Assembly: GCA_937920475.1 (NCBI GenBank)
Contig: CALEUX010000074.1
Location: 1 to 64,000, forward strand
Direction: 5' to 3'
Length of the DNA: 64,000 nucleotides
Origin: an uncultured Marinilabiliaceae bacterium
Lineage (GTDB): Bacteria > Bacteroidota > Bacteroidia > Bacteroidales > Marinilabiliaceae
This document shows positions 2,480 to 30,461 of this stretch, one piece after another (position 1 is the stretch's first letter; every line of letters starts with the position of its first letter). The notes beneath the pieces were generated by a model, which saw nothing but the letters and a program-made list of their open reading frames with translations, ran no database searches and was not told where the DNA came from. Both the position numbers and the translations under genes were made by a program.

Positions 2480-3742
2480 TTATTCGGGTTTAAGGGATAT
2501 TTCAATTAATTCAATTTTTGATTTAGTTGCATCAAGTATTTTAAAGATGAAATTTTCAATCTCAATTTCTTCCTTTGCCTGAGGTATGGCTTCGTTATGA
2601 AAAAGTATAAACCCAGCCAGGGTTTCATAATCGTCGGATACAGGAATGCCGAGGTTGTATTTTTCGTTCAGATAGTCAATTTCCATGCGTCCCGAGAATT
2701 GAAAAGTATGTTCATCAATTTGTTTTTCTGTTAAATCGGAAGTGTCGTGTTCATCGTTAATCTCTCCAAATATTTCTTCCAAAATATCTTCAAGTGTAAC
2801 AATTCCGTAAGTACCTCCAAACTCATCCACTACCAAAACAATACTTCGGTGTTCTTTTGTGAATATTTCGAGCAATTTATTGGCGGTCATTGATTCAGGT
2901 ACCACCGAAATTGGGCTAATAATGTTGCGCAGTTTTTTCGGATTCTTAAACATCTGCGACACATGAACATAACCCACTATGTTATCGATGTTCTCTTTAT
3001 ATACCAATATTTTAGAAAAACCGGTTTCAACAAACAGGTCACGAAGATTCTCAAGACTATCGTCAATTTCAACAGCTTCCAAATCGGTACGGGGAACAGA
3101 GCACTCGCGCACCTTAATGGTTGAAAAATCGAGGGCGTTTTTAAAGAATTTAACCTCTTCGGGCAGGGGAAGGTTTTCTGTGGCTTTTTCCTGATGCTCG
3201 GTAATTAGGTGGTCAAGGTCAACACGGCCAATAACAATATTCTCTTTTTGTGGAGGGTTATTTGCTTTTAGAATTTTACGTATAAAAAAGTTTGAAAAGG
3301 CCAGCGTAAGTTTCGATATTGGATAAAACAACCAGTAAAAAAAAGTGAGGGGTACGGCAAAAATGTTCATTGACACTGAAGGGTTCATCCGGAAAATTAT
3401 TTTTGGCAAGAACTCAGCCGTAATTAATATGACCAATGTTGAAAATACCGTTTGCAGTAAAAGCGTTGTGGTTTCCGATTCTATGTATTGCTTAATCCCG
3501 GGCTCAATAATTTTCCCCATGTATAAGCCATAAACAACAAGTGCTATGTTGTTGCCCACCAATATGGTCGATATAAATAATCCTGTATTTTTGTAAAATA
3601 CATCGGTTAATTTGGAGAAGCCGGGATTTTTCTTTCGGTTTAATTCAATCATTAAACGATTGGAAGACAGGAAGGCCATTTCACTGCCTGAGAAAAATGC
3701 CGACAGGATAAGCGTAAAAATGATAACCGACAGATGGTTCAT
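2480..3742 (-). CDS. CNNM/DUF21 + CBS + CorC_HlyC membrane protein (HlyC/GldE family)
   Basis: A 420-residue inner-membrane protein. The N-terminal DUF21/CNNM region has about four hydrophobic segments and begins with the typical SAFFSGSEMAF motif. A CBS-domain pair follows (about residues 200-330, including VVDEFGGTYGIVTLEDILEEIFGEI), then a C-terminal CorC_HlyC transporter-associated domain. Relatives are annotated as hemolysin C, magnesium/cobalt efflux CorC, or the gliding-associated GldE in Flavobacteriia; the sequence alone does not choose between them. The CBS pair suggests nucleotide regulation of ion transport. It sits between lptC and ppiD in an envelope gene cluster. Family confident, exact role open. 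Confidence 0.88.
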   Translation of the reverse strand: MNHLSVIIFTLILSAFFSGSEMAFLSSNRLMIELNRKKNPGFSKLTDVFYKNTGLFISTILVGNNIALVVYGLYMGKIIEPGIKQYIESETTTLLLQTVFSTLVILITAEFLPKIIFRMNPSVSMNIFAVPLTFFYWLFYPISKLTLAFSNFFIRKILKANNPPQKENIVIGRVDLDHLITEHQEKATENLPLPEEVKFFKNALDFSTIKVRECSVPRTDLEAVEIDDSLENLRDLFVETGFSKILVYKENIDNIVGYVHVSQMFKNPKKLRNIISPISVVPESMTANKLLEIFTKEHRSIVLVVDEFGGTYGIVTLEDILEEIFGEINDEHDTSDLTEKQIDEHTFQFSGRMEIDYLNEKYNLGIPVSDDYETLAGFILFHNEAIPQAKEEIEIENFIFKILDATKSKIELIEISLKPE

Positions 3743-26204: not shown

Positions 26205-27446
26205 ATGAAGATAGAATATAAAGACCTGCCCGGTCAGATGGTCTCAGAGTTTGAACAGATACTTAAATTCTGGATGGAGAAGGGCGTGGATTCAAAATTT
26301 GGAGGTTTTTTGGGTGAAGTAGACTTAACCGGAACACCCTCCATCAATGCCCCCAAAGGAGTTGTTCTGAATGCCCGCATTTTATGGGCTTTTTCTATGG
26401 CATATAATTTCCTCAAAAAGGAGGAGTATCTTCAAATGGCTCACAGGGCTTACAATTATTTGAAAAGTCACTGTTGGGATAACGAGTTTGATGGTTTATA
26501 CTGGAGTGTTACCCACGATGGGAAAATGCTCGATGGCCGAAAACAGATTTATGCACAGGGATTTGGAATCTACGGATTTTCAGAGTACTATAAAGCTACT
26601 GGTAATGCCGAAAGTTTGAATTTTGCCATTAAGCTGTTCAATCTTATTGAAGAGCACAGTTTCGATAATGAATATAAAGGATACATCGAAGCATTGTCGC
26701 GCAGCTGGCAGCCGCTTAGTGATATGCGCCTTAGCGCCAAGGATGCCAACGAACCCAAGTCGATGAACACCCATTTACATATTATAGAACCATACACCAA
26801 TTTGTACCGGGTGTGGCCTGATCAAAAACTTGGAGTTCAAATGCATGGCCTTATCCGGGTTTTCCTCGACCATATTATCGATACGCAAACAGGTCATTTT
26901 AAACTATTTTTTGAGATGGACTGGAAAGAGAAAGGCAATATGGTTTCTTATGGTCATGATATTGAAGGTGCCTGGCTTTTATGCGAAGCTGCCGAGGTTT
27001 TGGGCAATAAAGCGCTATTAAAAGAGGTTGAAGCTGTTGCCTTGAAAATGACCAATGTCACCATTCAGGAAGGACTTACCCCTGATGGAACCTTATTGTA
27101 CGAAAAAGACTTTGGAAACCATCATTTCGACGAAGATCGACATTGGTGGGTACAGGCCGAAGCCATGGTTGGATTTATAAATGCATGGCAGATAACCAAC
27201 GATGAAATGTATCTGGAGAAAATGGCTACTGTTTGGAACTATATCGATAATAAATTGATTGATAAAAAGTTTGGAGAATGGTTTTTGCGAACCGACCGCA
27301 ATGGATTTCCGGTTTTTTCCGATCCAAAAATCGGATTCTGGAAATGCCCATACCACAACACCCGGGCTTTAATGGAAGTGGCTTTACGACTCAGAGCAAA
27401 TATTGATAAATTAAAACAATTAGTTACTCTTAATAACAGCCAATAA
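26205..27446 (+). CDS. Cellobiose 2-epimerase (AGE superfamily)
   Basis: A 413-residue cytoplasmic enzyme that epimerises the reducing-end sugar of beta-1,4-disaccharides, here mannobiose to mannosylglucose (EC 5.1.3.11). It has the (alpha/alpha)6 AGE fold with catalytic-type histidines in EDRHWWVQAEAM and WKCPYHNTRALMEV, and the substrate-binding GKMLDGRKQIYAQGFGIYGFSEY stretch. It feeds the GH130 phosphorylase encoded just upstream. The stop overlaps the start of the transporter by one base (TAATG), indicating translational coupling. Confidence 0.92.
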   Translation: MKIEYKDLPGQMVSEFEQILKFWMEKGVDSKFGGFLGEVDLTGTPSINAPKGVVLNARILWAFSMAYNFLKKEEYLQMAHRAYNYLKSHCWDNEFDGLYWSVTHDGKMLDGRKQIYAQGFGIYGFSEYYKATGNAESLNFAIKLFNLIEEHSFDNEYKGYIEALSRSWQPLSDMRLSAKDANEPKSMNTHLHIIEPYTNLYRVWPDQKLGVQMHGLIRVFLDHIIDTQTGHFKLFFEMDWKEKGNMVSYGHDIEGAWLLCEAAEVLGNKALLKEVEAVALKMTNVTIQEGLTPDGTLLYEKDFGNHHFDEDRHWWVQAEAMVGFINAWQITNDEMYLEKMATVWNYIDNKLIDKKFGEWFLRTDRNGFPVFSDPKIGFWKCPYHNTRALMEVALRLRANIDKLKQLVTLNNSQ

Positions 27447-28843
27447 TGATAACACAAAAAGTTTCGTTACGAGAGAAAATAGGGTATGGGTTTGGCGATG
27501 CCGCCTCGTCCATGTTCTGGAAAATATTTACTTTTTACCTTGCCATATTTTACACCGATGTGTTTGGTATTCCTGCTGCTGCGGCAGGAACCATGTTTCT
27601 GGTTACACGCATTTGGGATACAGCCAACGACCCCATTATGGGTATCATTGGCGACCGCACCAAATCGCGCTGGGGTAAGTTCAGACCATACCTGCTTTGG
27701 GTAGCATTTCCTTTTGCCATTATTGGAGTGTTGTTATTCACCACACCCGATTTGTCGCTAAAAGGTAAAATTGTTTACGCCTATTTATCCTACACATTGA
27801 TGATGATGGCTTATACGGCCATTAACGTTCCTTATGCCAGTCTGTTGGGCGTTATGACTTCCGATTCAAATGAGCGAACTGCATTTGCATCATACCGAAT
27901 GATTTTTGCTTTTGCAGGAAGTTTGCTGGTAGTGGCTATTTTTCAGCCTTTGCTCGATGCTTTTAAACAAAATGGCATCGACGTTTCTACATCGTACCAA
28001 TTAACCATGATGGTTGTAGGTGTAATTGTTATTGGCTTTTTTCTGATGACATTTTCCTGGACTCGCGAACGGGTTAATCCGCCTAAAGAGCAAAAAAATA
28101 ACCTGAAAGAGGATTTAAAAAATCTTGGTAAAAACATTCCCTGGTTTGTATTGCTGGGAGCCGGTGTAATGACGCTTATTTTTAACTCGGTTCGCGATGG
28201 TGTGGCCGTTTATTATTTTAAGTATTACATCAGCAACGACTTTTCACAGGAATCGGCCGTTTACCTGTCTAAAATGACCATAGCTTTCAGCACCTTTTAT
28301 TTGTTTTTAGGCCAGGCAACCAATATGTTTGGTGTAATGATGGCAAAACCAATTTCTGCCCGCATTGGTAAACGAAATACCTTTATTTTGGCCATGCTTG
28401 GCGCAGCCTTCCTGAGCATTGGTTTTTACTATCTCGATAAAAACAGTATTGCATTTGTTTTTACCTTGCAGGCGCTCATTAGTTTTTGTGCCGGTATAAT
28501 TTTCCCATTGTTATGGTCGATGTATGCCGATGCAACCGATTATTCGGAATGGAAAACCGGACGCCGTGCAACCGGATTGGTTTTCTCTGCCTCCAGCATG
28601 TCGCAAAAACTGGGTTGGACACTGGGAGGTTCTGTAACGCTGTGGTTGTTGGCGTATTATGGATTTCAGGCCAATGTGGAGCAATCGCCCGATACCATTC
28701 GTGGAATCAAATATATGATGAGTTATGTTCCGGCTATTGGTGCCTTACTATCAGGCCTAATAATGTTTTTATACAAGCTCGATGAAAAAACCATGGATAA
28801 GGTTATGGCTGATTTGCAGGAAAGAAGAACTGCAGAGGAATAA
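27446..28843 (+). CDS. GPH-family sugar:cation symporter (MFS)
   Basis: A 465-residue inner-membrane protein with about 12 transmembrane helices. It carries the GPH/MelB-type signature (GYGFGDAASSMFWKIFTFYLAIFY; DPIMGIIGDRTKSRWGKFRPYLL). It probably brings beta-mannobiose or mannosylglucose from periplasm to cytoplasm for the epimerase and phosphorylase; the substrate is inferred from operon position. It is the last gene of the mannan enzyme operon. Confidence 0.92.
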   Translation: MITQKVSLREKIGYGFGDAASSMFWKIFTFYLAIFYTDVFGIPAAAAGTMFLVTRIWDTANDPIMGIIGDRTKSRWGKFRPYLLWVAFPFAIIGVLLFTTPDLSLKGKIVYAYLSYTLMMMAYTAINVPYASLLGVMTSDSNERTAFASYRMIFAFAGSLLVVAIFQPLLDAFKQNGIDVSTSYQLTMMVVGVIVIGFFLMTFSWTRERVNPPKEQKNNLKEDLKNLGKNIPWFVLLGAGVMTLIFNSVRDGVAVYYFKYYISNDFSQESAVYLSKMTIAFSTFYLFLGQATNMFGVMMAKPISARIGKRNTFILAMLGAAFLSIGFYYLDKNSIAFVFTLQALISFCAGIIFPLLWSMYADATDYSEWKTGRRATGLVFSASSMSQKLGWTLGGSVTLWLLAYYGFQANVEQSPDTIRGIKYMMSYVPAIGALLSGLIMFLYKLDEKTMDKVMADLQERRTAEE

Positions 28844-28978: not shown

Positions 28979-29443
28979 TTAAATCATTGCTGCTCTTGTT
29001 CCATTTAAAAAATCCTTAATTGAAGATATATTCAAAAGCTTCTCTTTATTTTGATCTTCCAATTTAATATCCTTATTGCCGCTTATCAATGATTCCAGAG
29101 GAATACCTAAGTATCTGTTTAGAAGTGTTATCATTTTTAATGTAAGGGTTCTTCTTCCATTCAACACTTCAGACACCCTTGTTTTACCTCCAAAAAGTGG
29201 CGCTATATCCGCTTGTTTTAAATTCATTTGTTCCATTCTGAATTTGATAGCTTCGATAGGCCCGGGTGCTTCCATACAGTGATGTTCCTGCTCGTATTTT
29301 TCTACAAGTAACGATAAGAGTTCCAGTTCCTCTCCCTGTGCACTTTCAGGTTCTATTGCACTTTCAGAGCTATTGATAAGATTATAAATTCTTTCGCAAG
29401 CTTCATTATATTCTAATTCTGTTTTTAGTATTTTAGCTTTCAT
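28979..29443 (-). CDS. higA: HigA-type antitoxin, HTH transcription regulator
   Basis: A 154-residue protein with a Xre-type helix-turn-helix in its middle (about 70-125; MEQMNLKQADIAPLFGGKTRVSEVLNGRRTLTLKMI). An acidic N-terminal region is typical of the longer HigA antitoxins. It lies downstream of, and overlaps by 11 bases, a HigB-type toxin gene. Expected roles are toxin neutralisation and repression of the operon. The family call is clear; activity is inferred. Confidence 0.87.
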   Translation of the reverse strand: MKAKILKTELEYNEACERIYNLINSSESAIEPESAQGEELELLSLLVEKYEQEHHCMEAPGPIEAIKFRMEQMNLKQADIAPLFGGKTRVSEVLNGRRTLTLKMITLLNRYLGIPLESLISGNKDIKLEDQNKEKLLNISSIKDFLNGTRAAMI

Positions 29444-29744
29444 AACCTATTGTTTTTGCATTTATCGTATCATATTCCTTATGTGTTCCAAACCACACTA
29501 TAAAGACTATTTTTAGTTTGTATTCAATGTCAACTATTAGTCGATAGTCATTTCCTTTTATATTGAATACGACTCTTTTTGAGCTTATGACGCTGGCATT
29601 ACCGTATTTTGATTTCAATTCATTTGCATTATTCCAGGTAGAAAACTTTACCTCATAAACCCAGGCTTTTAGCGCTTCAGCAGCCTGCTTGTATTTACTC
29701 AACCGACAATAATCAGTAAGTGTTTTTTCTTTTATTATTCTCAT
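29433..29744 (-). CDS. higB: HigB-family mRNA interferase toxin
   Basis: A 103-residue protein of the HigB_toxin family (MRIIKEKTLTDYC start, KYGNASVISSKRVVFNIKGNDYRLIVDI core and IVWFGTHKEYDTI end). Members are ribosome-dependent endoribonucleases. Toxin-first order is the usual higBA arrangement. The candidate -7 element TAACTTTG lies only 6 bases before the start codon, so the mRNA may be leaderless or nearly so. Confidence 0.9.
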   Translation of the reverse strand: MRIIKEKTLTDYCRLSKYKQAAEALKAWVYEVKFSTWNNANELKSKYGNASVISSKRVVFNIKGNDYRLIVDIEYKLKIVFIVWFGTHKEYDTINAKTIGYES

Positions 29745-30052: not shown

Positions 30053-30082
30053 TTTGTATTTGTTAAAAAATGTCTATGTTTG
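30053..30082 (+). promoter_or_regulatory. Strong Bacteroidota-type promoter for a candidate sRNA
   Basis: TTTG at 30053-30056 and TATGTTTG at 30075-30082, with an 18-base spacer, match the TTTG / TAnnTTTG consensus. The only thing downstream before a terminator is a region without an ORF. Confidence 0.65.
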
Positions 30083-30087
30083 CAATC

Positions 30088-30162
30088 GAAAGATTCAAAC
30101 CTTTCCCTATAAGTCAGTGAAAAAAATCCAGAATGAAAAGGCCTTTAATCAGGCCTTTTTTC
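30088..30162 (+). ncRNA. Candidate small RNA of about 75 nt
   Basis: It lies between a consensus promoter and a strong terminator and has no open reading frame with a plausible start. The predicted 5' end is 5-7 bases after TATGTTTG; the 3' end is the T-run of AGGCCTTTTTTC. I do not recognise the family. It is too short for 6S RNA or tmRNA and lacks signal recognition particle RNA features. Existence is an inference from promoter plus terminator. Confidence 0.5.
30136..30162 (+). terminator. Terminator of the candidate sRNA
   Basis: AAAAGGCCT and AGGCCTTTT pair perfectly (9 bp) around TTAATC, with further T residues. No protein gene ends here, which is why an RNA gene is proposed. Confidence 0.8.
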
Positions 30163-30197
30163 ATTTATTTTTTTGCCGAAAATATTAAATTTGCCAC

Positions 30198-30374: not shown

Positions 30375-30449
30375 GGGTTGTTAGCTCAGTTGGTTTAGAG
30401 CATTACCTTGACAGGGTAGGGGTCACTGGTTCGAATCCAGTACAACCCA
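30375..30449 (+). tRNA. tRNA-Val (anticodon GAC)
   Basis: A complete cloverleaf can be folded. The acceptor stem is GGGTTGT/ACAACCC and the D-arm GCTC...GAGC. The anticodon stem TTACC/GGTAG carries the loop TTGACAG (anticodon GAC). The T-arm is ACTGG TTCGAAT CCAGT, and A is the discriminator. CCA is not encoded. Confidence 0.95.
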
Positions 30450-30461
30450 CAAAAAAAGAGA

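Follow-up and report, generated by a model that had tools for sequence, protein, structure and literature searches.

The window, the whole stretch of 64,000 nucleotides that was analysed, belongs to contig C74 of a draft Marinilabiliaceae genome (3.35 Mb, 76.7% complete), and its forward strand carries a short predicted small RNA (sRNA) gene at 30087..30163, with the start set from the promoter and the end placed at the T-run of the terminator. The promoter consists of a -33 element, TTTG (30053..30056), whose position is matched in relatives, and a -7 element of the Bacteroidota TAnnTTTG type, TATGTTTG (30075..30082), which is also recognizable in homologues; the spacer is 18 nt, and the arrangement TTTG-N18-TATGTTTG at 30053-30082, reported in a preliminary description of the locus, is thereby confirmed. 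Between the two elements (30061-30074), the sequence TGTTAA is itself conserved in several genera and is perhaps a regulator site. The intrinsic terminator (30135..30162) is formed by a 10-pair hairpin, which extends from 30135 to approx. 30160, and a T-run; as described earlier, it is separated from the promoter by an RNA body of about 75 nt without any intervening ORF. The open frame over the RNA, of 44 aa, begins inside the promoter and is not a credible gene. Taken one by one, these signals are no better than chance: the promoter pattern occurs twice in the 64-kb window, compared with 3.35 expected matches, and terminator-like sites are near chance density (5 versus 3.9 expected in 4 kb). 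The case for an sRNA was therefore rested on conservation, and it is the conservation of promoter, body, and terminator in relatives as one unit that exceeds chance.

The RNA is composed of three parts, namely a 5' hairpin (30088..30105) in which GAAAG (30088-30092) pairs with CUUUC (30101-30105), a single-stranded region (CCUUAAAUCAG, an A-rich stretch, and AAUCC), and the terminator. The fold of 30088-30166 has a predicted energy of -17.6 kcal/mol (z -3.0). The stretch that had been called single-stranded-looking indeed appears unpaired from CCUAUAAGUCAG onward, but its CUUUC portion is engaged in the hairpin. The conserved core reads CCUUUCCCUUAAAUCAG...AAUCC...AUGAAAA. Rfam contains no match to the window RNA at gathering score, in agreement with the initial impression that it belongs to no known family; matches obtained at permissive thresholds for the window and its relatives were dismissed as chance matches only. 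In particular, identity with GibS (RF04182), another Bacteroidota sRNA to which the window shows a weak match, was rejected, as the score of 22.9 bits (cut-off 115) is at chance level.

The distribution of the RNA was followed in a panel of 71 genomes of the family, which represent 21 genera (labelled g1, g2, and so on); named members of Marinilabiliaceae include Marinilabilia, Anaerophaga, Carboxylicivirga, Labilibacter, and Thermophagus. In a DNA search of these 71 genomes, several genera proved to have the homologue upstream of tRNA-Val, and others have it at different places; this set was extended by covariance models, R1 and then R2, the latter built from 37 sequences and matching the window RNA at 30088-30163 (53.8 bits, E 2.9e-6). 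Upon sequence inspection, the RNA is present in 44 of the 71 genomes and in 15 of the 21 genera (g1, g2, g3, g6, g7, g9, g10, and g12-g19), with one clear copy per genome, except for one assembly in which it occurs on two contigs. TAnnTTT(G/A) is retained before nearly all homologues, and the joint preservation of promoter, body, and terminator in near relatives, on which the preliminary description had staked its proposal, is strongly borne out. The terminator stem changes freely in sequence while retaining its pairing, with compensatory changes. In alignment A5, which was fitted to the structure and thus leans towards it, 97.8% of cells pair, two-sided changes are found in 9 of 15 pairs, and the covariation score is 0.455, whereas shuffles score 0.208 and slid controls no higher than 0.179. 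Most of this signal comes from the terminator, whose helix is 99.5% paired in homologues, with two-sided changes in 7 of 10 pairs; in the 5' hairpin, 94.6% of cells are paired and the loop-closing pair changes from G-C to A-U in 7 sequences, which gives this element modest support from covariation.

The gene neighbourhoods of the homologues differ. In the window, the RNA is followed on the same strand by tRNA-Val(GAC) (30375..30450) and, beyond it, by transketolase, as originally stated. Its probable ancestral upstream neighbour is a GPH-family sugar symporter gene (27446..28843, forward strand) at the end of a PUL that also encodes SusC, SusD, glycan-binding proteins, an alpha-galactosidase (Pfam Melibiase_2), GH26, GH130, and a cellobiose-2-epimerase-like protein; judging from these protein families, the PUL is probably of the beta-mannan type. 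In g2, g7, and g16, the homologue lies 99-171 nt after the same symporter, and in g2 and g16 it is followed by tRNA-Val; thus, the order symporter-sRNA-tRNA-Val is probably ancestral. Since g6 and g18 keep the RNA elsewhere, without the symporter or tRNA-Val, the RNA is independent of both, and the proposed synteny with tRNA-Val, though probably ancestral, is dispensable. The locus, which has its own promoter and intrinsic terminator, no conserved ORF, and a conservation independent of flanking genes, is predicted to encode a real, evolutionarily conserved sRNA of approx. 75 bases. Two further elements were observed in the vicinity. A two-gene unit at 28979-29744 on the reverse strand, between the symporter and the sRNA, is not found in the relatives with the 99-171 nt spacing; its translation suggests a HigB/HigA-like toxin-antitoxin pair, and a comparison with NCBIfam gave no match. 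The segment 30198-30313, between the sRNA and tRNA-Val, is a dispersed repeat, of which about 30 partial copies occur at other places in the genome.

The RNA appears to have a partner. A scan of contigs from 84,980 species for TTTCCCTTDDATCAG-N(2-12)-AATCC yielded the known homologues and five differently placed sites in Anaerophaga and Marinilabilia. A reading of the motif matches as mRNA leaders (L140, L157, and others) was dropped because the opposite strand of each site bears a complete sRNA gene, in which a TAnnTTTG promoter is followed by AGAUUUUUUUUCAUAGAUUUGGAUUUGGUUAACAAAGCUGAUUUAAGGGAAAAGG and a terminator. These RNAs carry the exact complement of the window RNA core and are unlinked to the window RNA. 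Two copies lie near each other and adjoin one protein gene, presumably cytidylate-kinase-like, for which no NCBIfam match was found; the same pair occurs in the window's own genome, as two tandem copies at C16:2824-2906 and 3023-3101. A model built for the partner, R3, has matches in 64 of the 71 genomes. Every one of the 21 genera is represented, g11 only by a match at E 0.049; a single genome has as many as 14 matches, and many of the matches are arranged in tandem. The best Rfam family for the tested partner loci is FopS (RF04319), 14 members of which repress SusC-like glycan transporters in B. thetaiotaomicron by pairing beside the start codon (PMC11697453). The partners align with RF04319 seed to seed (UUUUUCAU, GAUUU, GGUUAAnAAA, GAUU, terminator) and share with FopS a multicopy nature, a single-stranded 5' seed, and a terminator. 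As all their scores (25-38.5 bits) fall under the gathering cut-off of 56, they are called FopS-like rather than FopS; moreover, those of Marinilabiliaceae carry an additional CUGAUUUAAGGGGAAAGG before the terminator, which the Rfam FopS consensus lacks. The window RNA does not itself belong to this family, to which it is reverse complementary.

Several related loci were noted in the course of these searches. FopS-like clusters contain a third, sibling-like sRNA (L225 1125-1194; L157 at about 1080-1180; L140 at about 640-740), which in L157 and L140 shares the 5' GAUUUUUUCAUAAA(A)CUUGGAUUU and is devoid of the GGGAAAGG extension. The window's genome has another FopS-like RNA directly after a protein gene (L294 1497-1568, reverse strand; G000:C79:23940-24007), with the seed and without the complementary extension. 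Repeat-like sequence (CACTAATTAGTG.. TGTC) of about 400-1000 bases separates two FopS-like copies in Anaerophaga L140 and L153, and a SAM-II riboswitch above gathering score is located in g18 (L276 13-72, forward strand), about 1.4 kb from a FopS-like gene. A class-wide search with the partner model gave four weak matches outside the family, which were dismissed as poor alignments. In an order-wide search of 393 genomes with the model of the window RNA, the five matches outside the family proved on inspection to be terminators of other genes; low-scoring candidates in G021, G022, G004, G058, G069, and others were also dismissed on inspection. The phage records searched contained no match to the window RNA, and among viral contigs there was one match to its motif and none to the FopS-like partner. 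At the end of a Bacteroidales MAG contig (L163 6199-6256), a similar CCTTTCCCTTTTATCAG..AATCC lies between a TATATTTGC promoter and a ATGAAAAA start and possibly reflects an mRNA that shares the motif.

According to sequence comparison and duplex prediction, the extension CUGAUUUAAGGGGAAAGG complements the best-conserved block of the window RNA, CCUUUCCCUAUAAGUCAG (30100..30117). A second block, AAAUCCAG(A)AUGAAAA, shows complementarity to the seed region of FopS and therefore looks like the start of a SusC mRNA; in the window it corresponds to AAAUCCAGAAUGAAAA (30124..30139), which is predicted, from the duplex and from the Rfam FopS alignment, to pair with the FopS-like seed (UUUUUCAU...UUGGAUUU) and which resembles a SusC start region. 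Complementarity spans most single-stranded parts of both RNAs, so that the window RNA faces the seed of a trans-acting sRNA of the same genome over an extended length. In this genome, the predicted duplexes reach -38.5 kcal/mol with copy 1 and -37.2 kcal/mol with copy 2, values attained by none of 1000 dinucleotide shuffles; the real duplexes of seven other genera are equalled by at most 2 of 1000 shuffles, and those of g9, g10, g12, g13, g14, and three of the four g6 pairs by at most 1 of 500. The fourth g6 pair, which involves a Carboxylicivirga FopS-like copy (G019), pairs poorly (19 of 500 shuffles). Overall, pairing is kept in 14 of 14 genera compared (g17 left out); in g18, it shows small mismatches and not clean compensation. 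Co-folding against competing internal structure leaves a net gain of -15.7 kcal/mol, with both terminators and the 5' hairpin retained. No window RNA was found in g20, and there the extension has decayed, with the sequence CUGAUUAAAAUUGAAGG in two genomes; with the g20 FopS-like RNA the window RNA pairs only at shuffle level (-18.9), and with the Rfam consensus at -13.7. In g4 and g5, the complementary extension is kept and no window RNA was detected, which speaks against a strict co-occurrence of the two; the window RNA may have been missed by the search or lost. The preliminary suggestion that the body pairs with mRNA is thus probably not quite right, since its strongest conserved complementarity is to FopS-like sRNAs, which are themselves mRNA-targeting.

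Because most of its unpaired sequence is complementary to the multicopy FopS-like sRNAs, the window RNA is probably a single-copy, trans-encoded anti-sRNA, i.e., a sponge or target mimic directed against the FopS-like RNAs of the same cell. In this mechanism, both RNAs would be transcribed and would pair in the cell. Pairing would probably nucleate where the sponge is single-stranded, at UAAGUCAG/AAAUCC, and AAUGAAAA, also in the sponge, would mask the FopS seed, which otherwise pairs with the start codons of mRNAs. The FopS-like RNA would be taken off SusC mRNAs, and the relief of SusC repression would release translation of glycan transporters.

The complementarity itself does not encode the direction of regulation, and its symmetry also accommodates a reversal of roles, in which the window RNA regulates mRNAs through a CU-rich UUUCCC seed and the FopS-like RNAs, via their AAGGGGAAAGG extension, act as its sponge or the two are mutual antagonists. 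CU-rich seeds are common among sRNAs, and the extension is specific to Marinilabiliaceae FopS-like RNAs and not part of the Rfam FopS consensus, both of which favour this view. This arrangement is nevertheless unlikely: it is for FopS that mRNA repression has been demonstrated in B. thetaiotaomicron (PMC11697453), the window RNA is present in a single copy facing many FopS-like RNAs, and it also covers the FopS start-codon seed, which a pure extension-sponge would not need. Quite improbable is a decoy whose target is an RbpB-like RRM protein and not an RNA. RbpB counteracts FopS repression, binds FopS, and can titrate it (PMC11697453), and the window's genome encodes two RRM_1 proteins of the RbpB type, which also speak for the sponge reading; however, a shared protein site predicts the same sequence in both RNAs and not its complement, and the reverse complementarity to FopS-like RNA would be left unexplained.

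Two further explanations disregard the partner. In several genera, the RNA is linked to tRNA-Val and the GPH symporter, which might mark it as a leader, attenuator, or processing element, either of the tRNA-Val transcript or of the mannan PUL mRNA at its 3' end. This is very improbable given that the window RNA has its own promoter and terminator, that relatives have another promoter-like sequence, TATTTTTGC, between the RNA and tRNA-Val, and that both neighbours are absent at the g6 and g18 copies. As for the 44-aa frame that covers the RNA, its start within the promoter and its loss in homologues, which vary by insertions and deletions, mean that a short peptide gene is hardly credible.

Read as a sponge, the window RNA has its closest functional parallel in CrfA of Caulobacter crescentus, which acts as a sponge on four sibling sRNAs, SisA-D (PMC12559287). 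Both are single sRNAs complementary to a core common to several siblings, and CrfA, too, is linked to carbon source use (PMC12559287). CrfA differs in phylum and sequence, acts with Hfq, and has been shown experimentally, whereas the window RNA is known from its sequence; in addition, only the complementarity of the latter extends over most of both single-stranded regions and includes a start-codon mimic. Rfp18 of Flavobacterium, also a conserved Bacteroidota sRNA, is set apart by its description, with three or more stem-loops and with metalloproteases as targets (PMC9723704). In the open-licence literature, which leaves most subscription papers and all preprints outside its scope, no description of a sponge in Bacteroidota was found; PMC7366714 does no more than mention the concept, and RbpB is the only FopS antagonist described in PMC11697453. 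The classical sRNA chaperones of Pseudomonadota are said to be missing from Bacteroidota, and FopS sRNAs take part in polysaccharide choice in Bacteroides (PMC11697453). If true, a natural RNA antagonist of FopS would mean that sRNA-sRNA circuits operate in Bacteroidota too. FopS-like RNAs are hereby extended to the environmental family Marinilabiliaceae, and the two-component system could be tested in cultured Marinilabilia or Carboxylicivirga. A wider proposal is tentative and rather doubtful: the RNA might represent a Bacteroidota sponge family that mimics SusC starts and whose ancient place was the 3' end of a beta-mannan PUL; use of one glycan would then raise the sponge and at once lift FopS-type repression from many SusC transporters, as an Hfq-independent RNA layer of glycan priority.

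The prospective SusC targets were examined in the window's genome, which has 44 SusC-model matches, 22 of them above cut-off. The start regions of these 22 genes were compared with 34 starts from the window, and they pair better than the controls with FopS-like copy 1 (Mann-Whitney p 1.4e-4) and weakly so with copy 2 (p 0.054); since start codons were assigned by rule and some of the window's own SusC/D-type genes are among the controls, this result is supporting rather than decisive. The best SusC site reaches -31.3 with copy 1 and -33.1 with copy 2. SusC sites are thus predicted to bind the FopS-like RNA more weakly than the window RNA does (-38.5 and -37.2, respectively), as a sponge requires.
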